Virus record (IMG/VR): IMGVR_UViG_3300009410_000068
Span: 1 to 21,629 of that record
Strand: one strand, 5' to 3'
Source of the DNA: a virus
Length of the DNA stretch: 21,629 nt
The notes under the pieces were generated by a model. The model saw nothing but the letters and a program-made list of their open reading frames with translations, did no database searches and was not told the origin of the DNA. Position numbers and translations under genes: made by a program. Positions 398 to 17,983 of this stretch are shown here, piece after piece (the stretch's first letter is position 1; each line of letters begins with the position of its first letter).

Positions 398-3300
398 ATG
401 AGCAACATTAATAAAATCAAACAACTGGGTATTCGTCAGCAGAGTGTTGTCCCAAAATTCGGACGCGCAAGCGCACTTGTGTTTATCTTTATCACAGGTA
501 CGGCGGTCATTGTGTCGAGTGCCAGTCAAGCGCAAACGTTGGAATGGGACACAACAACCGGCGATAATACTGTGAATGGTGGGACAGGTACGTGGGATGG
601 CGCGACGCAAAACTGGACTGCTGACGTTGGTAATTCCAATATCGCGTGGGGATCTGGCGGCGACGCGGTTTTCGGCGGCACTGCCGGAACCGTGGATGTC
701 AGCGGTCCGCAAGCGGCCAGCGGGCTGAGCTTTACTTCCGATGGATATACGCTGACCGGAAATATTGGCGATGGTGATATCCTGACGCTAACCGGGACAA
801 ACGCGCAGATCGATGTCGCGACCGGAACCGCGACATTGGGCGTAAAATTAGCAGATGTTAATCAAGGCGGTCTGGTAAAAACCGGCGACGGCACACTCAT
901 TTTATCTGAATTCAGTGATCTTTATGGAATGGTGACCATCGATGCCGGAACGCTGAGCATTACAAAATCAGGCGTGTTGAATGGGACTGGCAATGGGGTC
1001 ACCGTCAATTCCGGCGCAACGTTCGATGTCGCGGCGAGCGAGGGTATTGATAATTTCATTGGCAGCGGCAGCACAGTGATTGCTAATGGCCAGACCCTGA
1101 GCGTCGGACTTAACTCCGTTTCGTTTAGTGGGGAATATTCCGGTGTTATTTCGGGCGCCGGTGCGCTGCATAGTTATGCGGACAGGACATTGTCAGGTGA
1201 TAACACCTTTACAGGGGGGCTGACAGTGCAGGGCGGTGCTCTGCTGTTGAGCGGTTCACTCGATACAAATGCGATCAACATCGTCGACGGTATATCCGGT
1301 TACGGTGATCTTGTCGTGGCGGGGAACGGTGACGCATTGAGCGATACTGTAGTGATTAACAATTCCGCTACACTGACACTCAGCGGCAATGACGAAACGA
1401 TCGGTTCGGTCTTTGGCGCTGGCGATATCAACCTCAATGAAAATAGGTTGACGACCGGTGATGCCTCTGACGCCGAAATTTCGGGCGTCATTTCTGGCAC
1501 CGGGGGGCTGGTCAAGCAAGGAACAGGGACGCTGACCCTGTCAGGTGCTAACACATATTCTGGTGATACAGACATCAACAATGGTACGGTAACGACGAAC
1601 AACGTCTCTGCGCTTGGCACCGGGACGGTCAGCGTCAATGGTGGCACACTGAACCTTGCTTCTGACCTGACGATTGGCGCGCTTGTCGGCTCAGGTGATA
1701 TCACCAACAACGGCAATCTTTTGACGACTGGGGACAACAATGCCTCGACCACTTATTCCGGGGTCTTATCCGGCACAGGAGGTCTGACCAAGTCCGGCAC
1801 CGGCACGATGACCCTGAACGGCGCGAACACCTATACCGGGGAAACCATCGTCAACAGTGGCGGCACCTTGGTCGCTGGGAACGCCAATGCATTCGGCACG
1901 GGCAACAACTTCCGCGTCAGCGGCACTGCTGATCTTGGCGGGTTCACCATCACGAAATTTTCGACGATCTCGCAAGGTGGTACGTTACAGAACGGCACAT
2001 TGAACATGACCGGTGCCCTTCAGATCCAGAATGCGACGGTTAATACCGTATTGTCAGGCACAGGATACGTAGCGAGCGTTGGTGGCGGCACGAGCACACT
2101 TTCTGCTGCCAACACCTTTACCGGCAATCTTGTCGCAGACCGCGGCGTATTGGACATAACTGGGTCCACCGTAACGAACACTGTTAATATCACGGACCTT
2201 GGTAGTAACGGTGCTGGTATCGTGGTTCACGGTGCCTCGCTGGCTGATACGGCAGATGTGACGATTTCAAATAGCGGCGTGCTGACAGTCGCGGGCGATG
2301 AAACTATCGGGTCGCTGGCAAGTGCATCGGCGACATCATCTGTTGTGCTGAACGCTGATTTGACGACGGGTGACGCCGGCGATGATGTCTTTGCAGGCGT
2401 CCTGTCAGGTGCAGGCGATCTGATCTATCAGGGCAGCGGCACGTTTGAATTGTCAGGCGCCAGTACGATGACCGGCGATATCCAAAACACGGGCGGCGGC
2501 GCACTGACACTGAGCGGCAGCACAGCGGGCGGCGTTGTGAACAGTGCTGGCACGTTCAACAATTCCGGCGCGATCGGGGGAACCGTAACAAACGAAGCCG
2601 GTGCCGTGTTTAATGCAAACTCTGGCGGCACTTATGGCGCAGATATCGACAACACGGGTGATTTCAATATTGCTGCGCTTGACTTCACCCTGAACGGCAC
2701 TTTTACGAACGATGGCACGGTGACCAACACGTCCGGCAGTGCGGTCACGTTTACCGTTGGTACAGGCGCGAATTTCGTCAATAACGGCGCGCTGGATGGC
2801 GGAGCGTCGGGGATTACGCTGACTGGCGATAAATATACAATCGGCATAGGCAGCACGCTGAACGCAGTCACGCTTGATGTCGAGAACCTGACCGCCAACG
2901 CCGATTACGACCTGTCAGGTACAACCGATTACAACTTTACCAACAACGCAACGGCGACTGTTGTTGCCGATGCTATATTTAGCGGCGGGGATCTGGACAA
3001 TACCGACATACTCAACGTAGCGGGCGGTGATTTGACCGGGGTAGGTGAACTGGACAATAGCGGCACCGTGAATATCGGCGATGGCACGGCGCGGACGTTA
3101 GAGGCCGCTAGTGTGACCAATAGCGGTACGATCAATGTGAATGACGGCTCCACCCTGCGCGGCACGGGGAATACCTCCAACAATTCAGGCACGGTCAATG
3201 TGGCAGGCGGTGGCGCGCTGGTGGAAACCACGGGCGACTATAATAACCTTGCCGGTGGCGAGATAAATTTCAACGATGCGGACGCCAAAACATTCGCCGT

Positions 3301-6300
3301 GCAGACCGGGGTTATCACCAATGTGGGCTACCTGAACTTCAACGGTGGTGTGACAACCGTCAATTCCGCAGGGGGTGCCATCGACAACAGCGGGACGATT
3401 ACCGTTGCGAATGGTGCAACGATGGATGCAACGGGTGATGCGATCACCAACATCGGCACAATTGATATGGCGACGGGCAGTGTGCTGACTGTCGATACGC
3501 TGACCAACGATACCGGTGGCGTTGTAAATTCTTCCGGGACACTGAATGCCGACGTGATCAATCAAGGCAGTGGCGATTTCAATATTCTGGACGGTTTGAT
3601 CAGTCTGGGCCTCAATTTCACGAACACCGATACGGCAACGCTGGACGTCAACACCGGCACAAGCATCATCCAGAACCTGACCAACACCACGACAAGCGGC
3701 ACGGGTGTCACCGTGGCCGTGAATGCAGGATTGAATGCGAATTCCATTCAAAACGGGCTTTCCAATGGATCCGCGGCGTCCGTGATCACCAATAACGGCG
3801 GATTGTATAGCGATACGTCGATTACCAATTATGCAGGTGCAACGCTGAATTCAGCGACGACAGATAGCGTGATTGCGCTTGAGGGTACGCTGACGAACAA
3901 CGGCACCGTGAATATTCAGGGCTTGCTTGCCGGTGCATCGGTCGTGAATAGCGGCGCGGATGCCATATTTAACGTTGTGGGGGATCTGAACGCAGACAAC
4001 TCAAACCCGCTCAGCGCCTTCACCAATCAAGACAGCGCAGTCCTGAACGTCACGGGCGGGACATTTTCGTTGGACACGCTGACCAATACTTCCACTGGGA
4101 CGGGCACGACACTGACAACCGCTGGCGTCCAGATCGCTGCGGATGGGGGGCTTTTGGTCGATGGCGCGTTTGCCAATAGTGGCACTGGCACGGTCAACAA
4201 CGCCGGTACCATCGAAGCGACGACGATCACCAACGGTGCGGATGCCACGCTGGTATCCACCGGCACCATCGACGTTAGCAATTCTTCTGATCCGGCTGCA
4301 TTTTCCAATGCCGGGATTGCGGAAGTTGTCGGCAGTATTCTCGGAAATACGACCAACACCGGTGATTTTACGGTAGCAGGCATTCTGGACGCCACAGGGG
4401 ATTTCCTCAACAACGGGTCCGGCACGGTGAGGGTGGAAGATATCGCGCTGAACGTCAGCGGCGATTTTACCAACACAAGTGATGTATCTGGCACAACGGT
4501 GGCTACCGCTGGTGTGCAGGTGGCTGACGGTGCGTCGCTTTCGGCGACGACCATTGTCAACGGAGAAGACGCATCAATGGCTGTTGCGGGGGTTTTGACT
4601 GCCCTATCCAACGCAAACGACGCAATCGACAATGCCGGGACCCTTACCGTGGATGCAAGCGGAACGGTGAATGGGCCACTGACCAACAGTGGCACCCTGA
4701 CATCGACCGGAAGCTTGAACGATGGGCTGACCAACGATGGGATCGCGACCATCAGCAATGATGTGAACGGCGTGATCCAGAACAACGATGGCGCGCAGTT
4801 GATCGTTGATGCCAACCTGGCGATGGACAATACACTGAACAACGCGGCCGGTGGGCTGGTGGATGTAAACGCGGGTAGCATAAGCGGGGTGGTTGCATTA
4901 AGTAATCGCAGCGCTGGCACCGGAACTGGCGCAGATGCCGCCGGGTTCGAGATTGACGCAGGCGCCTCGGTGAGTGCGTTAAACGTGCTGAATGCAGATG
5001 CCGGGACGCTTTATGTCGCGGGTACCCTGACGAGCAACGATGGGATCAGCAACACCGGGACAGCGCAGCTTGATTCGATAGGGGTTTTGAGCGGCGATGT
5101 TTTGAATAACGCAACACTGAACCTAGAGGGCATTCTTGACGGTGCCTTAGACAATGACGCGGGGACGACCACGATCACCGGTCTGCTGACTGGTACAGCC
5201 GGGGCAGCAACCGGCACTGTTACCAACCGCAATGGCGCTGAATTCACCATGCAGGCGGGAACAACAATCACGCTGGATATATTGGAAAATGATGCGACCT
5301 CCTTGATGACGTTGAACGGGGCGACAATCGACGGCGATGTCACAAACCAAGGAGACATAGTCGGTGGCGGTCTGGTGACGGGATTACTTGAAAACAATGG
5401 AACGGTCGATATGACCAATGCGTTGGCTGGAGATGAACTGCGCATGGAGACAGGACTGGTTAGTTCCGGGTCCTATGCTCTAGACCTTGATCTCGCTTCA
5501 GGCACGCCGGGCTCGGATTTGTTAACCGTAATGGGCAGCACGACAGGAAATCTGTCGTTGCAGTTTGCGCCCCTGACCGGAGCTGTTCGGCTGATGGACA
5601 GCCCACTAATGGTTGTCGATGTTGATGATACAGCGGTAAATGATTTCATGTTTTCCGTGAACGGTTTGCCCACCGGAATAGGCCCAATCGCCGTATACGC
5701 CAGCCAGCTGGTGCCAAATGGCGATATTGCGATTGAAACAGGAGTTTCGCTGACCCTTGGCGCATTGCTGGAAGGGGTCGCACAGATTGAGGCGTTGAGC
5801 AGTCGGGGGCCGGGGCTTGTTGCCCCGCATGTCGCAGATATCTGCGGTGGTGCGAGCGGCTGGGGCCGCGTAACCGGAGGAGAAGCGACAGCCAATTCTA
5901 CCGCGCAAAGTGGCGGTCGCACCGGCAATCTGAAGCTCGTAAGTGACCACAGTGGGATCGAAGTCGGCGCGAATTTGGGGTGCGCAAGCGAGTTGGGTGG
6001 CTGGGATCTGAGCTATGCCGTTTTAGGCGGTATGAACAGCGGGTCATCTACTCAGAGCTTGATCGGTGATGTCGCTTCGGTCACCGCAATGAACTTTGAA
6101 CAGCTTTATGGCGGTTTGGCCGGTTCCGCCACACGTGGTGCGCTGACTGCAGACGCACAACTGCGCTTTGCCCAAACTGATTATACCCTTGGTACAAGCA
6201 CAGGCGGTGTCGGAGCGGCATTGAACCTGTCCAACGATAGCATTACAACCCAGACGATCGGCTTCGCGGGATCGTTGAATTACCGTATCCCTGTGGGCCA

Positions 6301-6730
6301 GACCGATTTCGCCGTCGTCCCTCATGGCGGTGTATCCATTGCCAGCACCAGCGTTGATGCTCTGTCATTTGACATGGGTGAAACCCTGGCGGCTGACGAC
6401 TACACCACCACCAGCGGCTTCGTCGGTGCCACGGTGCAATACGAATCCGTTGCGGCGGATGGCCAAAGCACCCTGAATGCATTTGTCGGGGCCAGCTATC
6501 ACAACTCCCTGAGCGAAGCGCAAATCGCAACGCTGACTGACACTGCCGACAATCAGGCACGTCTGAGCACAAGCGGCGTTGATGGTTTCGCTGACATCAG
6601 TTTTGGTGTGGAGTACACTAGCCAGATCGACGCGAAGCGCGAGTTCAGTCTAGCCTTTAAGGCAGACAGCAGTCTAGGAGATGATGTGGAAGGCTATGCT
6701 GTTGCTCTTCAGGTCGGCCTGCAGTTTTGA
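398..6730 (+). CDS. Giant type V autotransporter (PATR-repeat adhesin-like)
   Basis: This 2110-residue protein is a type Va secretion autotransporter. Residues 1-45 form a basic leader and hydrophobic core (about 25-41), with likely cleavage after Ser-Gln-Ala (43-45). The passenger (about 46-1815) is rich in Gly, Asn, Thr, Asp and Ser and I see no Cys in it. It carries autotransporter-associated beta-strand (PATR) units, for example near residues 158, 370 and 461 (GTGTLTLSGANTYSG type), then a long region of Asn-x-Gly-Thr coils suggesting an extended beta-helix. The beta-barrel starts near GWGRV (1821) and ends in the typical C-terminal Phe (VGLQF). The only Cys residues seen are 1816 and 1862, at the barrel entry. 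The start is supported by GAAGG 6 nt upstream. I see no protease or lipase motif, so adhesion or biofilm is the likely role by family analogy. It is probably a host gene rather than a phage gene, since its strand and style differ from the prophage. Confidence 0.93.
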   Translation: MSNINKIKQLGIRQQSVVPKFGRASALVFIFITGTAVIVSSASQAQTLEWDTTTGDNTVNGGTGTWDGATQNWTADVGNSNIAWGSGGDAVFGGTAGTVDVSGPQAASGLSFTSDGYTLTGNIGDGDILTLTGTNAQIDVATGTATLGVKLADVNQGGLVKTGDGTLILSEFSDLYGMVTIDAGTLSITKSGVLNGTGNGVTVNSGATFDVAASEGIDNFIGSGSTVIANGQTLSVGLNSVSFSGEYSGVISGAGALHSYADRTLSGDNTFTGGLTVQGGALLLSGSLDTNAINIVDGISGYGDLVVAGNGDALSDTVVINNSATLTLSGNDETIGSVFGAGDINLNENRLTTGDASDAEISGVISGTGGLVKQGTGTLTLSGANTYSGDTDINNGTVTTNNVSALGTGTVSVNGGTLNLASDLTIGALVGSGDITNNGNLLTTGDNNASTTYSGVLSGTGGLTKSGTGTMTLNGANTYTGETIVNSGGTLVAGNANAFGTGNNFRVSGTADLGGFTITKFSTISQGGTLQNGTLNMTGALQIQNATVNTVLSGTGYVASVGGGTSTLSAANTFTGNLVADRGVLDITGSTVTNTVNITDLGSNGAGIVVHGASLADTADVTISNSGVLTVAGDETIGSLASASATSSVVLNADLTTGDAGDDVFAGVLSGAGDLIYQGSGTFELSGASTMTGDIQNTGGGALTLSGSTAGGVVNSAGTFNNSGAIGGTVTNEAGAVFNANSGGTYGADIDNTGDFNIAALDFTLNGTFTNDGTVTNTSGSAVTFTVGTGANFVNNGALDGGASGITLTGDKYTIGIGSTLNAVTLDVENLTANADYDLSGTTDYNFTNNATATVVADAIFSGGDLDNTDILNVAGGDLTGVGELDNSGTVNIGDGTARTLEAASVTNSGTINVNDGSTLRGTGNTSNNSGTVNVAGGGALVETTGDYNNLAGGEINFNDADAKTFAVQTGVITNVGYLNFNGGVTTVNSAGGAIDNSGTITVANGATMDATGDAITNIGTIDMATGSVLTVDTLTNDTGGVVNSSGTLNADVINQGSGDFNILDGLISLGLNFTNTDTATLDVNTGTSIIQNLTNTTTSGTGVTVAVNAGLNANSIQNGLSNGSAASVITNNGGLYSDTSITNYAGATLNSATTDSVIALEGTLTNNGTVNIQGLLAGASVVNSGADAIFNVVGDLNADNSNPLSAFTNQDSAVLNVTGGTFSLDTLTNTSTGTGTTLTTAGVQIAADGGLLVDGAFANSGTGTVNNAGTIEATTITNGADATLVSTGTIDVSNSSDPAAFSNAGIAEVVGSILGNTTNTGDFTVAGILDATGDFLNNGSGTVRVEDIALNVSGDFTNTSDVSGTTVATAGVQVADGASLSATTIVNGEDASMAVAGVLTALSNANDAIDNAGTLTVDASGTVNGPLTNSGTLTSTGSLNDGLTNDGIATISNDVNGVIQNNDGAQLIVDANLAMDNTLNNAAGGLVDVNAGSISGVVALSNRSAGTGTGADAAGFEIDAGASVSALNVLNADAGTLYVAGTLTSNDGISNTGTAQLDSIGVLSGDVLNNATLNLEGILDGALDNDAGTTTITGLLTGTAGAATGTVTNRNGAEFTMQAGTTITLDILENDATSLMTLNGATIDGDVTNQGDIVGGGLVTGLLENNGTVDMTNALAGDELRMETGLVSSGSYALDLDLASGTPGSDLLTVMGSTTGNLSLQFAPLTGAVRLMDSPLMVVDVDDTAVNDFMFSVNGLPTGIGPIAVYASQLVPNGDIAIETGVSLTLGALLEGVAQIEALSSRGPGLVAPHVADICGGASGWGRVTGGEATANSTAQSGGRTGNLKLVSDHSGIEVGANLGCASELGGWDLSYAVLGGMNSGSSTQSLIGDVASVTAMNFEQLYGGLAGSATRGALTADAQLRFAQTDYTLGTSTGGVGAALNLSNDSITTQTIGFAGSLNYRIPVGQTDFAVVPHGGVSIASTSVDALSFDMGETLAADDYTTTSGFVGATVQYESVAADGQSTLNAFVGASYHNSLSEAQIATLTDTADNQARLSTSGVDGFADISFGVEYTSQIDAKREFSLAFKADSSLGDDVEGYAVALQVGLQF
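3677..5300 (+). repeat. Four-copy super-repeat in the autotransporter passenger
   Basis: A degenerate module of about 130-144 residues recurs with starts at residues 1094, 1228, 1357 and 1501 (nucleotides 3677, 4079, 4466 and 4898). Each copy opens with a [L/F]-[T/S]-N-[T/R]-[S/T] motif, followed within about 15 residues by an A-G-[VFL]-x-[IVA] segment (AGVQIAADG, AGVQVADGA, AGFEIDAGA and a weaker NAGLNANS). Later come a short N-G/A-x-A linker and an S/D-N-A/T-G-x-A step. Copies are diverged in DNA and protein, so this is old intragenic duplication rather than a recent tandem repeat. Confidence 0.55.
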
Positions 6731-10643: not shown

Positions 10644-12080
10644 TTACCCCAAGCTGCTTTGGAAATTGCTGTCGGCGGCCGCGTTGGATTGTTTGACGAG
10701 TTCCTTTTGCATCTTCTCCAAAAGGTCAGATTGCCTGCGCAACTCTTCATTCTGCGTGTTGATTAAGTCTTGCGAGATCTTCCCTTGGTTTGCCGCCTCA
10801 TAGGCAATCTTTGCATCGAAAGCCGTGGCATAGCCGGACCCGTCCAATTGATACGCACCACGCAAGGCTAAGGCTGCGCTTTCAAGGCTATCAGCGGCAT
10901 CTGTCACGCTGTCAAAAATAGGGGCCAGCTGAATCAGGCTTGCCGCCAGATCCGTGTCACCGGCAAGCATCGCAGTCTCAACCATTTCTCGGAATGCCGC
11001 GTTGGTGTCGGGCATAAAGTTCACACCCAGTTCGCCAAGCGCTTCGGTCAGGCGCACCCGTGCATTCGCGAGCTTTTCGTCATCGGTGTAGAATTGATCG
11101 TAGTAGGTTGCAGTCGCCGTGCTGAAGTCTTCCAGCGTCCCGAACAGATCCGCGAACTGCGCCGCCGCATCAGCACCCACGAGTGAGATGTCATAAGCGC
11201 TGAAGCCGAGATCCCGGAACACATTGTTCACCGTGACCAGCGACGAACTCAGCCGCATCAGTTCATCATAGGCACCGTCAACGCTGCGGCTGACGTCATC
11301 CACGCCATTTTGAAACCTGGCAGAAAACCCACGACCGAGACTATCACCAATCGTCGCGCCGAGATCACCAAAACCACCCGAAGCCAAAACACCGCTGCGG
11401 ATCCGGTCGATCAGTGAGCCGCCAACTGTTTCCGCCGCGTCTTGGACATTCCACCCCAATACGATCGCCGCCATTTCATCGCCAAGCCCGCCGAGCGCAT
11501 CCGTGATGGCCGCCTCTTGCGCGGCCTCATCAAGCCCCTTCAAGGACACTTTGAATTGATGCGTAAACCCGTCAAAGACATCGGCTGAGATCCCTAGCGC
11601 TGCGGTCGCGGCCACAACACCATCTTGCACTGAAAGCACCGCGGTATTGAGCGGGTCGCTTTCTTCATCAGATAATGCGTCGTAGTTATAACTGGTCTTT
11701 TTAGACAGACCCCAGAATTTGCTTTTCTGGATCTTCTCAAAGCTTTCAAACATGGCCCCTTCCATGTCGATCGTCGCACGAACACCGCTGTCTAACAGTT
11801 TGGCTTTGGTCTTAAAAAACGACACTGCCGCGAGCGCGATCCCCGCGATTGGCAAGGCGGCACCCATCGTTGCCATCAAACCGCCCCCCGCCAAACCAGC
11901 ATTGGCCCCGATGCTCAGCAAGCCGCCAAGACCGCCGCTAGACCCAAAACTGGCAGCCAATGTGCTGCCCAAACCGCCCAACAGACCGCTCCCACCTGCA
12001 AGCCCACTAAAGCCAGCCGCCAAACCACCGCCGCCCGTGAATGCGCCCATGATCCCACCAGATCCACCCATGCTGCCCAT
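10644..12080 (-). CDS. Tape measure protein, C-terminal part (other frame)
   Basis: About 478 residues if started at the ATG at 12080, which overlaps the stop of the upstream fragment as TGATG. The first 90 residues are Gly/Ala/Met-rich and hydrophobic (LAGGSGLLGGLG and similar), the sort of membrane-active segment that normally lies inside a tape measure protein. Helical stretches follow, with a final coiled coil (about 440-470, EELRRQSDLLEKMQKELVKQ). The frame stays open upstream past the stop of the first fragment and encodes AAGGGLLSGL, which joins smoothly to its GSMAGGLAG. The two are therefore best read as one gene of about 1060 residues broken by a -1 frame change near 12096-12121. 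Independent re-initiation cannot be excluded. Confidence 0.75.
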   Translation of the reverse strand: MGSMGGSGGIMGAFTGGGGLAAGFSGLAGGSGLLGGLGSTLAASFGSSGGLGGLLSIGANAGLAGGGLMATMGAALPIAGIALAAVSFFKTKAKLLDSGVRATIDMEGAMFESFEKIQKSKFWGLSKKTSYNYDALSDEESDPLNTAVLSVQDGVVAATAALGISADVFDGFTHQFKVSLKGLDEAAQEAAITDALGGLGDEMAAIVLGWNVQDAAETVGGSLIDRIRSGVLASGGFGDLGATIGDSLGRGFSARFQNGVDDVSRSVDGAYDELMRLSSSLVTVNNVFRDLGFSAYDISLVGADAAAQFADLFGTLEDFSTATATYYDQFYTDDEKLANARVRLTEALGELGVNFMPDTNAAFREMVETAMLAGDTDLAASLIQLAPIFDSVTDAADSLESAALALRGAYQLDGSGYATAFDAKIAYEAANQGKISQDLINTQNEELRRQSDLLEKMQKELVKQSNAAADSNFQSSLG

Positions 12081-13828
12081 CAATCCCGATAACAGGCCAC
12101 CGCCCGCGGCGCCCCAGCTAGGCCGCCCGCCATCGATCCCGTCGGCGCAAGTCCCAGGCCAATCATGATCTTGTTTTTGACGGCCGTTGAGATCAGATCG
12201 GACAGGAGCTGCTTGAATGTCGCCTTGATACCAGAGGCAAAGCTCTTAAAATCCTTAAACCCATTGGCAACAAAATCACCAAAGGCGGATGCAACCTCAC
12301 CCCATGCCGATTTGAGTTGCCCTGAAAGCGTATCAGCGAGACTTTCCGCCCCAGACGCGGCACCGCCCGCTGCCGCGTCAACATCCTCTAAGCTCTTTGA
12401 GAGATCGCCCGCATCCGCACCGGTGTCGGCAATAGCCTCACCTGCGGCCACAGTGACCGCCCGCAGTGCCGCGATACTTTCCAAGGGTGCGCCGACAGCC
12501 GCTGCCGTGTCATGCAATGCCCCCGTCGCCACATCTGCGGCATCGCGCGCAGCCTTCGCCATCAGCGTCAGCTCTTGCGTGATGACACCAGAGGCGCCGC
12601 TGAGGTTTGTGCCAAACAAATCGTTCAGCCCTTCAGCAACAGACCAGGTGAATTCCACAAACTTGTAGGCCATTGACCCGATGGCTTCCGCGAACCAAGC
12701 ATTCATTGATGCAGACCCGGCCTTCACCGCGAGTGGCACCAAGCTGAATGCTTTACCTATCCGGCCAAACACCTCAACGGCCACATCCTTCAGCAAGCCA
12801 AGCGCATTGCCAAATCCGCCTGCACTCTCAACCAGGCGCGTAAACCGCAACACAAGCTCACCAGCACCGACAATCAATGTGCCAATGCCAGTGCGGATCA
12901 GCGCCCTGCGCAAAAGCGTTAAACTGCCCGCAAGCGAGAATGTCGCGATACGCGCCGCAACAAGCGCCCCAACGTAATGCGTGCCAAACGCGGCGACCGC
13001 GACGCCAGCATAGATTGCCAGCCGATCCAGGTTGTTGATGAGCGCATCTGTCACGCCGCGCAAAAGCCCGCCCTCTTGCATCGATGCCACAAAGGCATTT
13101 GCCAGCGCCTCAAGTGAGGGTGCCACCTGCACGGCAATGCGGTTTGCCATCCCCGTGAACGCAACGCCCACCTGGCCGATCGCAAGGCTCGTTTTGCGCA
13201 GTGACGCAATCGCGTCTTGATCCAAGATAACGCCCAGTGATGCCGCACTCGCGCCAAAGCGGTCCATCTCGCTGGCGTTGTCACGCAGCAGTGGCAACAG
13301 CAGCGTGCTATCCCCCGCCATGGCCTCCATATAGAATGTCATTTCTGCTTGGGTCAGGTTGGCCTTTTCCAAACTGCTGACAAAAAGCTGCAGCCCTTGC
13401 GCGCCCGACAGATTGCGAAACGACGCCGCCGTAACCCCAACCTTTGGCGCGATGTTCTCAAAAAAGTCTGCCATTGGCCCGCCGCCGGTCGCGGCAAAGT
13501 CACCAACCCGGTCATTCATATCCTTGAGAATGTCAGACAGCTTATCTTGTTCAATCCCCACCGTTCTGGCCCCAGCCGCCCAGCGTTGAAACACCTCAGG
13601 GGCGGTGTTCGCGACCCTTGCGAAGTTATCGATTTCCTGTGCCTGCGCAGCCACCCCAACCGTCAGACCGGCCAATGCCGTTGCCGTCGTTGCCGCAACA
13701 GCAGAAATCGCCATGAACTGTTTACGCATCCGGCGCAAAGGCGCATCCATGCGCTTAGCACCACGTTCAAACTGGGCGCTATCCAAGCCAAGGTTCACCC
13801 GCAGGCTACCGATCACCGATGATGACAT
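12080..13828 (-). CDS. Tape measure protein, N-terminal part
   Basis: A 582-residue fragment of the tail length ruler, which spans the tail lumen and helps DNA entry. The start at 13828 (MSSSVIGSLRVNLGLD) has AGGAG 8 nt upstream. The N-terminal stretch with LGLDSAQFERGAKRM is typical of alphaproteobacterial phage tape measure proteins. A hydrophobic Ala/Thr segment follows at about 37-60 and further hydrophobic segments lie near the middle (LAIYAGVAVAAFGTHY, LVAARIATFSLAGSL). The end (KNKIMIGLGLAPTGSMAGG) enters a Gly-rich zone and is then cut by an out-of-frame tail (APRAVACYRD, stop at 12080-12082). In an intact phage this gene would follow the assembly chaperones directly; here a bacterial cassette of about 3 kb intervenes. 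Confidence 0.88.
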   Translation of the reverse strand: MSSSVIGSLRVNLGLDSAQFERGAKRMDAPLRRMRKQFMAISAVAATTATALAGLTVGVAAQAQEIDNFARVANTAPEVFQRWAAGARTVGIEQDKLSDILKDMNDRVGDFAATGGGPMADFFENIAPKVGVTAASFRNLSGAQGLQLFVSSLEKANLTQAEMTFYMEAMAGDSTLLLPLLRDNASEMDRFGASAASLGVILDQDAIASLRKTSLAIGQVGVAFTGMANRIAVQVAPSLEALANAFVASMQEGGLLRGVTDALINNLDRLAIYAGVAVAAFGTHYVGALVAARIATFSLAGSLTLLRRALIRTGIGTLIVGAGELVLRFTRLVESAGGFGNALGLLKDVAVEVFGRIGKAFSLVPLAVKAGSASMNAWFAEAIGSMAYKFVEFTWSVAEGLNDLFGTNLSGASGVITQELTLMAKAARDAADVATGALHDTAAAVGAPLESIAALRAVTVAAGEAIADTGADAGDLSKSLEDVDAAAGGAASGAESLADTLSGQLKSAWGEVASAFGDFVANGFKDFKSFASGIKATFKQLLSDLISTAVKNKIMIGLGLAPTGSMAGGLAGAPRAVACYRD

Positions 13829-14081
13829 TGTAAAAACTCCTGTTCGAGCGAGGCGTGCGCACACAACAATGAGCGCGTACGGAAAGCCGTCGCGGTTTGG
13901 GAAGGATGTGAAAGATGGAGGGCTATGGGGTGGTAGGGTCAGGCAGATGTGAAATGCCTGAGGACGGGTGTATGCCGCGTAGCGTCAGATGTCCGCTTCG
14001 CGGGACTTATCTGCCATTGGAACTATCAATGCGGATGTCGGCTTTTCAGAATCGAACCCGAAAGGCCGCGCTACTATTTTT
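13829..14081. other. Non-coding left flank of the inserted cassette
   Basis: About 250 bp between the tape measure start and the PPOX-class gene stop. It holds the tape measure ribosome site and, further right, sequence with TTCGCGGGAC (13997-14006) and GGATGTCGGCTT (14033-14044), both echoed on the other side of the PPOX gene. The left junction of the cassette must lie here. No transposase or integrase remnant is visible. Confidence 0.45.
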
Positions 14082-14744
14082 TTAGTACAACGTATTCTGG
14101 TAGTCGTCCTCTAAAGCCTCATTCAACCTATCCATTTCCCCTTTATCGCTCGGGGCGGAGTTCGTGGCGTCCAGCGCAATCTTCATAAGGGAAGGTAGTT
14201 CGCTTCGATCTTGATGGTGATCAGGGTTCCATAGATGTGATCGGCGAAACGCCTTTGCGCAGTGAATGAACACGGTACTCACCTCAACCACAATCGCCAA
14301 TCTGGGCAAGCGATCATCTACGGACAGGCTTTCAAGAAGACCGGGGTCCGCGACCAGTGTTGCCTTTCCGTTTACACGCATCGTGTCGTCAAAACCGGGT
14401 ATGATAAACAACAGGCCCACATGAGGGTTCGCGACGATATTTGACAGGGTATCAAGTCGATTGTTGCCGGGCCTGTCGGGGATCACCAGTGTCTTGTCGT
14501 CAATGATTTTGACAAACCCAGCAGGGTCGCCGCGCGGGCTGACATCCGCTTTACCCGCGATACTTTGCGTGCCGATACAGATAAACGGACTCCTTTCGAT
14601 GAACGCCCGGGCGTGTTTATCAATAGACGTCTGCACCTTTTTTATCGCCAAATCATGGGTAGGCGGGAACAAGGATCGCAAATCATCTTCATTCGATATG
14701 ATGAACTCAGGCACAGGTCTGTAGGATGACATTCTTTGTCTCAT
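14082..14744 (-). CDS. PPOX-class FMN-dependent enzyme, DR_2398-like
   Basis: A 220-residue protein of the pyridoxamine 5'-phosphate oxidase-like split-barrel class, closest to the DR_2398/MSMEG_1061 subgroup (TIGR04025 type). Recognisable blocks are KADVSPRGDPAGFV (65-78), PDRPGNNRLDTLSNIVANP (89-107), the LLFIIPG strand (111-117), TMRVNGKA (121-128) and HCAKAFRRSHLW (161-172). Such proteins bind FMN or F420 as dimers and catalyse undefined redox reactions on small molecules; the substrate is unknown. Met5 (14732) is an alternative start, and neither start has a strong ribosome site. It lies downstream of the hydrolase on the same strand but 304 bp away, so it may have its own promoter. It is not a phage structural gene. 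Confidence 0.85.
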   Translation of the reverse strand: MRQRMSSYRPVPEFIISNEDDLRSLFPPTHDLAIKKVQTSIDKHARAFIERSPFICIGTQSIAGKADVSPRGDPAGFVKIIDDKTLVIPDRPGNNRLDTLSNIVANPHVGLLFIIPGFDDTMRVNGKATLVADPGLLESLSVDDRLPRLAIVVEVSTVFIHCAKAFRRSHLWNPDHHQDRSELPSLMKIALDATNSAPSDKGEMDRLNEALEDDYQNTLY

Positions 14745-15048
14745 TCATGGTTTCGCTGCTTTCTCCTAGGGTAATCGCCAAAGCAGTCGTTTGTGAAGGG
14801 CGCAGCATCGGTCCCTTTGGGCTCACTGCCGCCATTCGTCTCGGTTGCAAACTTTGTTTGGCTCAATCGTGCTCGCTAATGACTGGTTCGCGGGACGAAG
14901 CCGACATCCACGGAATTCAATTGAAGGTCTGCTATCGCGTTTATGGTGCGCTTTCATACCGATTATACTACTAACGTTGAGCGGGCATCAGCGAAGCATG
15001 CGGCTCTCCGTTGATCTCGGAGGGCCGCACTAGGCAAGGCTATGCAAT
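14745..15048. other. Non-coding gap between PPOX and hydrolase genes
   Basis: 304 bp with no convincing coding frame. It contains TTCGCGGGAC followed by AAGCCGACATCC (14887-14909), words also found on the far side of the PPOX gene, and a strong hairpin near the hydrolase stop (14999-15029). It resembles decayed or dispersed intergenic sequence and could carry the PPOX promoter. Confidence 0.4.
14999..15029. terminator. Strong hairpin after the hydrolase gene
   Basis: Arms at 14999-15010 and 15018-15029 pair over 12 bp around a 7-nt loop. On the plus strand all pairs form, with one G-U; on the minus strand that pair becomes A-C. It lies 19 nt past the hydrolase stop, a fitting place for a terminator, but there is no U-run after it. 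Confidence 0.35.
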
Positions 15049-15984
15049 CTAAAGAACCTTTAGCCAATCTAAGATCGCGTGAGTGGTCTCATGCGGCTTT
15101 TCCTGCTGAATCCAATGGCCGCAGTCGAGGCTCAGCACCTCCACATTCGGGACATAGTCCGCGAGATTTTCCGAAGGTGGGATTATGTCCCGGGTACCAT
15201 ATACCATCAGCGTAGGTTGCTGGACGATAGGATCGACATCCGCCAAGATATGCCAGTTGCGGTCAATGTTCCGGTACCAATTGATACTCCCGGTGAACCC
15301 GGTCTTCTCGAATGACGCAGTGAAGACGGCAAGATCGTCGTCGCCCATGATAGGGTGGCCCATAGGCGCCGGAGCTTTGGCTATATTGATCATCATCATC
15401 CCAGGCTCCTGCGGTACGGGCGGAACATTCTTTCGGAACAGGTTCCGCAGGAAACGGCCCGTTTGCGCGTCTAAGACCGCGTCCGCGACACCAGGCTTCC
15501 GATTGAAATGGACGAAATAGTTGTCCTCTCCGAACAAAGCTTCCATGTACTCAATCCAAGGGACAGGCGTGCGGGCTTGATAGGGAAGCGCGAGGTTGAT
15601 TATCTTCTTCACGCGGGCCGGATGCAAAAGCGCCATGCTCCACACGACATTGGCGCCCCAGTCATGGCCGACAAATACCGCATCATCATAGCCGAAGTGA
15701 TCCAGAAGCCCAGCAAGATCACCTGTCAGATGGACGATGTCGTACTCTGTCACAACCTCCGGGCAGGAAGAGTTTCCATACCCCCGCTGGTTTGGAACGA
15801 TGACGTGGTAACCTGCCTCCGCGAGGGCGGGCATCTGATGGCGCCAGGAATACGCGTGCTCGGGCCATCCGTGGCACAGCACAATCGGGTTGCCTTTGTT
15901 CTCCTGCCCCGCCTCAAAAACCTCTAGTTCGATGCCATTGACGGCAATGAGCTTAGGTGTAGGAAAATTGGCGATGGTGGTCAT
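15049..15984 (-). CDS. Alpha/beta hydrolase, soluble epoxide hydrolase-like
   Basis: A 311-residue cytosolic alpha/beta hydrolase that probably opens epoxides to diols. The oxyanion-hole motif HGWP is at 38-41, the nucleophile elbow GHDWG at 106-110 with Asp108, the acid Asp266 in VYGTRD, and the general base His290 in DCGHW. Lid tyrosines that activate the epoxide are likely Tyr156 (NYFVHF) and Tyr237 (SINWYRN), the latter in the usual epoxide hydrolase context. An Asp nucleophile also occurs in haloalkane dehalogenases, but the lid Tyr favours epoxide hydrolase. Length is normal and no signal peptide is seen. GGAG lies 8-9 nt before the ATG. It is divergent from the WYL regulator, with an inverted repeat in the 87-bp gap. 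Confidence 0.9.
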   Translation of the reverse strand: MTTIANFPTPKLIAVNGIELEVFEAGQENKGNPIVLCHGWPEHAYSWRHQMPALAEAGYHVIVPNQRGYGNSSCPEVVTEYDIVHLTGDLAGLLDHFGYDDAVFVGHDWGANVVWSMALLHPARVKKIINLALPYQARTPVPWIEYMEALFGEDNYFVHFNRKPGVADAVLDAQTGRFLRNLFRKNVPPVPQEPGMMMINIAKAPAPMGHPIMGDDDLAVFTASFEKTGFTGSINWYRNIDRNWHILADVDPIVQQPTLMVYGTRDIIPPSENLADYVPNVEVLSLDCGHWIQQEKPHETTHAILDWLKVL

Positions 15985-16028
15985 ATCAGTGTCTCCGGTT
16001 TGGTTGGTTCGACACTCGCCTATGCCGA

Positions 16029-16053
16029 AAAGGTATCAAAATCTGATACCTTT
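16029..16053. promoter_or_regulatory. Probable operator between hydrolase and WYL regulator
   Basis: A perfect 10-bp inverted repeat, AAAGGTATCA (16029-16038) and TGATACCTTT (16044-16053), with a 5-bp spacer. It is centred in the divergent gap, 18 bp before the regulator ATG and 44 bp before the hydrolase ATG. Length and symmetry fit a site for a dimeric HTH protein. The adjacent HTH-WYL regulator is the natural candidate, so autoregulation together with control of the hydrolase is inferred. Confidence 0.7.
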
Positions 16054-16071
16054 GTGTGTTAGGATCGAAAA

Positions 16072-16785
16072 ATGAACAGCCGGTCCCGCCAAGACGCCAT
16101 CGTCCGAAGCCTCCGCCGCAACGGAGCGATCACCATCAGATCCTTGAGTGGAGAGGTGGGCGCATCGCGCAGTACAGTCCTGCGCGACCTTTCTGCCCTA
16201 CGTGATCAGGGCTACGTGATCCATGCCGAACAAGGTCGCGGTGGCGGGCTCTATCTAGACCCAGGCTCAGTGCAAACGACCGCCAAACTCTCTGTCGCCG
16301 AAGTCTTTGCATTGATACTTGGCATATCGAGCATGCGGGCCGCCGGATCGCTCCCGTTCTCGGGCCTCGCCGATAGTGGGCTCGCCAAGATCGAGAAGGC
16401 GTTGCCACCCGACAAGCTGCGCGACCTTCGTCGGCTGTTGGAATGCCTCTACGTTGGGCCACTGGCCCCGCAAGTTGATGTCTCGAATGTCGGAGAAATG
16501 GACGACGACCTGCTCCCCGCTTTTGAGCGGGCGTTTCTCGAACGCCTACGGCTGACGTTTGACTACTGCGACGGAAAGGGCGTCAATTCAAAACGCCGTG
16601 TCGAGCCTCAGGCCATGTTGATTTTGCCCCCGCTTTGGTACTTGGTCGCATGGGACCCAAGTCGCGAGAACTTCCGGCATTTTCGAATGGACAGGATCAG
16701 CCGCCCCGAAATCGTTGAAGGCCATGCATTTCGACAGCGGCGCATTGTATTCGAAGCAGGCGTGCAACCCGCACGATACGCTTAG
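16072..16785 (+). CDS. HTH-WYL domain transcriptional regulator (YafY-like)
   Basis: A 237-residue DNA-binding regulator. Residues 4-55 form a winged helix of the HTH_11/DeoR type (ITIRSLSGEVGASRSTVLRDLSAL), followed by a Gly-rich turn (GRGGGLYLD). The C-terminal WYL domain spans about 145-225, with the motif PPLWYLVAWD (W189-Y190-L191) and the FRHFRMDRI segment that usually contributes to ligand binding. WYL proteins sense small ligands or nucleic acid and often control a neighbouring gene. AGGA lies 7 nt before the ATG. It is divergent from the hydrolase with a shared inverted repeat, which points to local control. It runs opposite to the surrounding phage genes. The effector is unknown. 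Confidence 0.92.
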   Translation: MNSRSRQDAIVRSLRRNGAITIRSLSGEVGASRSTVLRDLSALRDQGYVIHAEQGRGGGLYLDPGSVQTTAKLSVAEVFALILGISSMRAAGSLPFSGLADSGLAKIEKALPPDKLRDLRRLLECLYVGPLAPQVDVSNVGEMDDDLLPAFERAFLERLRLTFDYCDGKGVNSKRRVEPQAMLILPPLWYLVAWDPSRENFRHFRMDRISRPEIVEGHAFRQRRIVFEAGVQPARYA

Positions 16786-16869: not shown

Positions 16870-17546
16870 TCACGCCCCATTCTGCAGCGCCCATGATATC
16901 AGAGCGCCACGTGCGCGCGCCTGCTGCACCTCCTCAGAACTCGGTTGAGGTTTGGCGCTTACGGGTTTGTATTGTGGCATTTTTTTGGGATCATGCAGCG
17001 CAAAGGTAAGCAGGTTTGCCAGTTCATAATTGCGGATGCGCGCTGCCTCATGCTCCCTCGCGTCTCGCGCCCGCACCCCTGTGATAATGCGCACAATCTC
17101 TGCAGGCGTGAGGTCCCAAAACAAGAGGTAATCTTGGCGCGCATCAATCCACGCGCCAAGAAGATTGTCTATGTCGTCGGGGTTTTTGGTTTCGTTTGGG
17201 GTTTGGCGGCTTTCACCGCCTTGCCGTTTCCCACCGCAGCCGCATCAGGTGGCGGGAACGCCAGGCTCACGGCTTCGGTAAAGGCCGCGAGTGCTGCGGG
17301 AAGTCCAACCGCATCCATGACGTCGCCCGCATCTTCCACTGATATGTCTTTGTCGTGGGCAAGCGCCGCCCAGATCACCGCACGTGCTGTACGGAAGTCA
17401 TCTTGGTTTACTTGGATCGCCTCCAGCCCCTCTTGGAACGAATGCCCCATCATATCTTTATAGGCGATCAAAGCATTGGTTGTGATCCGGAAGGTGTAAT
17501 CCACACCGTCCACCGTGAGTGTTACGCCGCCGCGTTTGCTGTTCAT
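16870..17546 (-). CDS. Tail assembly chaperone GT, -1 frameshift fusion product
   Basis: A predicted product of about 225 residues made when ribosomes slip -1 near the end of gene G and continue in the overlapping frame to the stop at 16870. The extension (about 102 residues) begins DDIDNLLGAWIDARQDYLLFWDLTPAE; its FWDLTPAEIVR core is typical of the second tail assembly chaperone. The frame is open from just after a TGA at 17245-17247 and has no ATG or GTG before its conserved part. The only possible start is a TTG at 17124, inside the conserved stretch and without a ribosome site. In lambda-like phages G and GT act together to assemble the tail on the tape measure protein. The exact slip point is inferred. 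Confidence 0.72.
17169..17546 (-). CDS. Tail assembly chaperone G (gp10-of-GTA-like)
   Basis: A 125-residue protein after the tail tube gene, starting with ATGA overlap of that gene's stop. The N-terminal half (LTVDGVDYTFRITTNALIAYKDMMG) is typical of small tail chaperones that resemble gene transfer agent gp10 and phage TAC proteins, in which a short beta segment precedes helices. The last 20 residues are a Lys/Pro/Thr tail (KPQTKPKTPTT) encoded by an A- and C-rich run where -1 slippage would give GT. Function: coat and fold the tape measure protein before tube polymerisation. Confidence 0.8.
   Translation of the reverse strand: MNSKRGGVTLTVDGVDYTFRITTNALIAYKDMMGHSFQEGLEAIQVNQDDFRTARAVIWAALAHDKDISVEDAGDVMDAVGLPAALAAFTEAVSLAFPPPDAAAVGNGKAVKAAKPQTKPKTPTT
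17178..17189 (-). other. Candidate -1 slippery sequence of G/GT
   Basis: On the minus strand the zero-frame codons are CCA AAA ACC CCG. Lys on AAA can re-pair with AAA, and Pro on CCG with CCC, when moved back one base. This is not a classical X XXY YYZ heptamer, so single-tRNA slippage is the more plausible mechanism. The stop of G (TAG, 17169-17171) is 6 nt further on. Confidence 0.5.
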
Positions 17547-17983
17547 GGCGCCGCCGTGCCTTTTACCCAGGCCACATTGCCGGTCGTGCGGATGCTGACG
17601 GTCATGCCAACCAAATCGCCGACATCGTTGCCCTCAACCGATGGGGTTGGAAAGCCACGGAATGTGAAGATATCACCCGTTGTTTGCGACGGCTGCGGCT
17701 TGAGTGTGCAGCGATAATAAATCGCATCACTCGCGGCTTGATCCGCAAGCTGCTGCTCATAGCCGGCAGCCGTGTAGCCAGCGGGCACGCTGATCACGCC
17801 CGCATCTTTCAGGCCCTTGGTGTATTCTTTGAACCCACCGACACTATCGAGCGATGTCGCCTCTTTATAGTCGGTTTCTGTCGATGGGATTGCCAGCCCT
17901 TTGCATTCGGGGATTTTGGTGAATGCAACGCCATCGTGCGAGCGCTCTACGGTCGCGCCATAGGCAATAATCTGTTCGCTCAT
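17543..17983 (-). CDS. Major tail tube protein
   Basis: A 146-residue protein forming the hexameric rings of the non-contractile tail tube. The N-terminal strand pattern (ATVERSHDGVAFTKIPECKGLAIPS), the central motif SLDSVGGFKEYTKGLKDAG and the beta-rich C-terminus match the lambda gpV-like tail tube fold seen in many alphaproteobacterial siphophages. It has a strong ribosome site (AGGAGG, 5 nt from the ATG) that overlaps the stop of the gene before it, consistent with a protein needed in high copy. Its TGA overlaps the chaperone start as ATGA. Confidence 0.88.
   Translation of the reverse strand: MSEQIIAYGATVERSHDGVAFTKIPECKGLAIPSTETDYKEATSLDSVGGFKEYTKGLKDAGVISVPAGYTAAGYEQQLADQAASDAIYYRCTLKPQPSQTTGDIFTFRGFPTPSVEGNDVGDLVGMTVSIRTTGNVAWVKGTAAP

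Follow-up and report, generated by a model that had tools for sequence, protein, structure and literature searches.

Organization of the tail gene locus

The window analyzed here is an IMG/VR virus record of 21,629 bases, and its closest sequenced relatives are prophages of Loktanella sp. D2R18 and Yoonia tamlensis. On the minus strand, the genes run in the order major capsid protein, tail terminator, major tail protein, G, T (in the -1 frame), an insertion, and the tape measure gene. G and T overlap, with T in the -1 frame relative to G, and lie between the genes for the major tail protein and the tape measure protein (Table 1); the latter is 3 kb farther away because of the insertion.

Table 1. 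Features of the tail chaperone locus, in window coordinates
Feature	Positions	Strand	Basis or remark
Major tail protein, upstream neighbor of G	17543..17983	-	phrog_158, E=3.1e-13
Gene G, tail assembly chaperone, 125 aa	17169..17546	-	ORF list; phrog_2115; relatives match Pfam Phage_TAC_11
TGA, upstream bound of the -1 frame	17245..17247	-	frame reading
T open frame, -1 relative to G, no usable start	16870..17244	-	phrog_2066; relatives match PF09550 Phage_TAC_6
Slippery heptamer G_GGA_AAC, G frame	17226..17232	-	kept as G_GGA_AAC/G/A in 50 of 86 distinct relatives
Probable stimulatory hairpin GGCGGU-GAAA-GCCGCC	17205..17220	-	5 nt after the heptamer; -12.3 kcal/mol
AAAAACCCCG, earlier proposed slip site, not supported	17178..17187	-	A_AAA_ACC in the G frame, which does not fit XXXYYYZ
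Tape measure protein, N-terminal part	12080..13864	-	phrog_2854, E=6.1e-80; downstream of GT past the 3 kb insertion

Three further features of the record concern its surroundings. The insertion between T and the tape measure gene (14082-16785) holds three unrelated genes, for a WYL-type regulator (plus strand), an alpha/beta hydrolase (minus strand), and a pyridoxamine-oxidase-like protein (minus strand). The equivalent position in Loktanella sp. D2R18 (L007) reads as a hybrid histidine kinase on the opposite strand, and two other loci (L012 and L013) have no insertion there; the region has the look of a site for cargo insertion. Two ORFs (12080-13864 and 10644-12083) make up the tape measure gene, which in Y. 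tamlensis corresponds to one undivided open frame of 1,107 aa. The break, at about 12100-12130 in the window, looks like a one-base change by a run of G, either a sequencing error or a mark of a damaged prophage. At the record edge, positions 398-6730 encode an autotransporter-like repeat protein of 2,110 aa, which is probably bacterial flank rather than phage.

The T frame closes at TGA 16872-16870, and its conserved domain occupies 17178-16873. The sole start-like codon near that domain in the -1 frame is a TTG at 17124, which sits 18 codons inside it, and T lacks its own start. The first-pass annotation had placed a conserved second chaperone in the -1 frame, had found no ATG or GTG ahead of the conserved part, and had derived a fused product of 225 residues; on all three points our reading agrees with it.

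Protein families and predicted fold

Profile searches assigned G to phrog_2115 ("tail protein"; E=1.5e-13) and T to phrog_2066 (E=1.6e-9). Against PF11836 (Phage_TAC_11), the window G scored 18.5 bits, below the curated cutoff of 27.8, and 25 of 54 G relatives matched the family at E<=0.001. The window T on its own matched no Pfam family, including PF09550 (Phage_TAC_6), which was matched by 21 of 46 T relatives (best E, 5.7e-8). The G model (pLDDT 82) had no significant Foldseek match among solved structures. On a second look at Foldseek's PDB matches, the best were the HK97 tail assembly chaperone 2ob9 (Z 4.1) and phage p2 ORF12 3d8l (Z 3.8), both below the secure level, and the named viral matches were mostly tail chaperone or tail tube proteins. 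The predicted fold of G thus seems to resemble tail chaperones, which we treat as supportive only. Foldseek matches of T to viral models were weak and mostly unnamed. A sequence search of solved structures matched helical-repeat proteins, which we took as chance matches, no stretch having passed on its own.

A conserved slippery heptamer in the overlap

Read in the G frame, the overlap contains GTG GGA AAC GGC, within its open stretch and roughly 12 bases beyond the stop codon of the -1 frame. This places an XXXYYYZ heptamer, G_GGA_AAC, within the overlap, contrary to the first-pass annotation, which had held that no heptamer of the G-GGA-AAG type was present. After a -1 slip at this position the frame would be open all the way into T, with the same 225-residue product length.

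Relatives were collected from viral contigs, genome contigs, and Rhodobacteraceae genomes. After removal of near-duplicates (T proteins more than 90% identical), 86 loci had G and T in a -1 relation; ten more loci without such a G call were set aside. An in-frame G_GGA_AAC/G/A was found in the overlap of 50 of the 86 distinct loci, compared with about 3.5 expected under synonymous shuffling that kept the same codons and local codon usage. Across all such heptamers (some loci have two), the third codon was AAC in 32 cases, AAG in 17, and AAA in 5. In 14 loci that we followed codon by codon, GGA was preceded by GTG, GCG, TCG, CCG, or GGG, so that the amino acid varied while the last base was always G, and GGA itself was rare, at 2 to 13% of Gly codons. 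Since the preceding codon varies yet ends in G, and since GGA is rare, it is the nucleotides that are conserved and not only Gly-Asn/Lys. Different classical heptamers, C_CCA_AAC and A_AAA_AAC among them, occur in several other relatives.

One candidate reason for AAC in place of AAG, a host tRNA-Lys(CUU), was rejected. Among the 40 tRNA matches checked in Y. tamlensis, a relative, we found tRNA-Gly(UCC), tRNA-Asn(GUU), and, as the only tRNA-Lys, UUU; AAG should therefore be slippery there as well. This tRNA set speaks in favor of a slip at the heptamer. No Shine-Dalgarno-like enhancer was evident by eye upstream of the heptamer in the close group. G_GGA_AAC has been tested less thoroughly in bacteria than G_GGA_AAG, and this counts against a slip at the heptamer.

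The slip site proposed in the first-pass annotation was AAAAACCCCG, which is indeed present at 17187-17178 but is not conserved. There, a Lys-tRNA would slip by itself on A_AAA, and the P-site pairing is in favor of this, as A_AAA re-pairs perfectly after a -1 step; the A-site codon ACC, however, would be unable to re-pair with AAC. The element is absent from L002, L003, L007, L008, and L104, all five of which keep G_GGA_AAC, and the T proteins of L002 and L007 are 87% identical to that of the window. We consider slippage at AAAAACCCCG very unlikely. With a classical, conserved heptamer present and the proposed site missing from the nearest relatives, the idea of a nonclassical site with a variant mechanism is refuted for the window.

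A predicted hairpin downstream of the heptamer

The window hairpin has a z score of -1.95 relative to dinucleotide shuffles, which is modest for the window alone. The eight closest loci share a stem of five or six pairs in the same place. It begins five to six bases past the heptamer and in most cases has a GNRA loop. The loop-closing pair varies among five standard types in these loci (U-G, U-A, C-G, G-C, and G-U). Only 7 of 500 shuffles and none of the slid controls reached the observed covariation score, a result carried mostly by one base pair in eight sequences. More distant relatives have different hairpins or none that is clear. From this pattern, the hairpin probably stimulates the slip.

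Gene transfer agents and the absence of a T start

The gene transfer agents of Rhodobacteraceae, with g10 and the rcc01693 family, have the same two protein families at family level (Phage_TAC_11 and Phage_TAC_6, TIGR02216). Their T homologues belong to Phage_TAC_6, and the one tested was named as rcc01693 family, TIGR02216; in a profile comparison, phage T and gene transfer agent T matched with a probability of 96% over 32 columns. The difference lies in expression. In the gene transfer agent clusters (L204-L216 and L228), at least 9 of the 15 loci that we inspected have an ATG or GTG of the T homologue overlapping the G stop, an ATGA-type junction, with no frameshift arrangement. Since T starts there at its own ATG or GTG, the pair is expressed in these clusters without frameshifting.

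The same arrangement in the same bacterial family lends some plausibility to coupled reinitiation near the G stop in the window, which would yield T as a separate protein. However, neither the window nor any of the 50 relatives with the heptamer has an ATG, GTG, or TTG in the T frame over the 60 bases before the domain, and reinitiation would leave the conserved heptamer unexplained. We regard it as even less probable than a slip at AAAAACCCCG. The first-pass annotation had named T homologues encoded as separate genes with their own starts as evidence against frameshifting; such genes do exist, only in the distant gene transfer agent homologues and not among the phage homologues. A frame break due to sequencing error or gene decay, for which the apparent one-base break in the tape measure gene of the same record might speak, is already refuted, and its probability is negligible, because exactly this -1 relation is found again in 86 distinct loci, among them isolate genomes such as Loktanella sp. 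D2R18 and Y. tamlensis. The frame relation, the missing T start, the conservation of the heptamer, and the hairpin pattern are all read from the sequence, and dependence of the second chaperone on -1 ribosomal frameshifting, as the first-pass annotation had also suggested, is strongly supported.

A distant branch without the heptamer

Some distant relatives lack the heptamer (L020, L061, L064, L070, L071, L075, L078, L151-L158, and L168-L172), and many of them have C_CCU or C_CCC at the junction. In this distant phage group (e.g., L020, L061, L071, and L078), a CCU or CCC codon preceded by C stands at the junction, and the -1 peptide is conserved from the junction proline onward (P-S-E-G). C_CCY was found in the overlap of 22 of 36 heptamer-less loci versus 12.5 expected, and therefore it stays a lead; as a general alternative, one-tRNA -1 slip site, it is suggested but not proven by these counts. 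It is possible, although we hold it to be rather unlikely, that the distant branch has swapped the two-tRNA heptamer for a one-codon proline site (CCU or CCC re-pairing with CCC), with the gene transfer agents using an overlapping start.

Comparison with known tail chaperone frameshifts

The locus resembles G/GT of phage lambda in the order major tail protein, G, T, and tape measure, in the -1 direction, in an XXXYYYZ heptamer near the end of G, and in a T without its own start. It differs from lambda in that the heptamer ends in AAC rather than AAG (G_GGA_AAG in lambda), in the predicted downstream hairpin, and in the 3 kb of unrelated genes lying between T and the tape measure gene. The family searches yielded no sequence matches to lambda proteins. 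In lambda, G and GT function in tape measure binding and tail protein recruitment (PMC5009743). GGGAAAC is reported as the slip site of the tail chaperone frameshift in Caulobacter phage Colossus (PMC3556154) and in halovirus HCTV-1 (PMC5009743); these viruses have other hosts, and what they share with the window here is the heptamer. By implication in one paper on Rhodobacter capsulatus phages, most of those described there carry the usual chaperone-frameshift sequences (PMC8601537). Because GGGAAAC has already been reported in Colossus and HCTV-1, this is a known kind of system, and its heptamer has a precedent in this gene.

We therefore read the locus, with a probability of about 0.95, as a lambda-like G/GT pair of tail assembly chaperones with a -1 slip on G_GGA_AAC, carried by a tailed prophage of Rhodobacterales, in the Roseobacter group. 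Most ribosomes would complete G, and a minority would slip at the heptamer through a tandem shift of tRNA-Gly (GGA to GGG) and tRNA-Asn (AAC to AAA), probably assisted by the GNRA-loop hairpin five bases downstream. Reading on in the -1 frame would then give the 225-aa GT fusion (...AAVGN-RQGGES...DDIDNLLGAW...). The slippage itself, its efficiency, and the chaperone function are what we infer here; by analogy with lambda, G may coat the tape measure protein and the T part may recruit the major tail protein.

Implications

The frameshift finding is real but ordinary, with a slip site of the well-known GGGAAAC type. It corrects the annotation in that the T part joins G by a -1 shift at 17226-17232 and is not a separate hypothetical gene. 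It also spares a test of the wrong slip site: the reporter segment suggested earlier (17165-17200) excludes the heptamer. The 86 or so loci offer a clean comparative case: within one chaperone family, phages have a conserved heptamer and gene transfer agents a separate start. If the proline site of the distant branch were also true, a single gene pair would have three interchangeable routes to its second chaperone.
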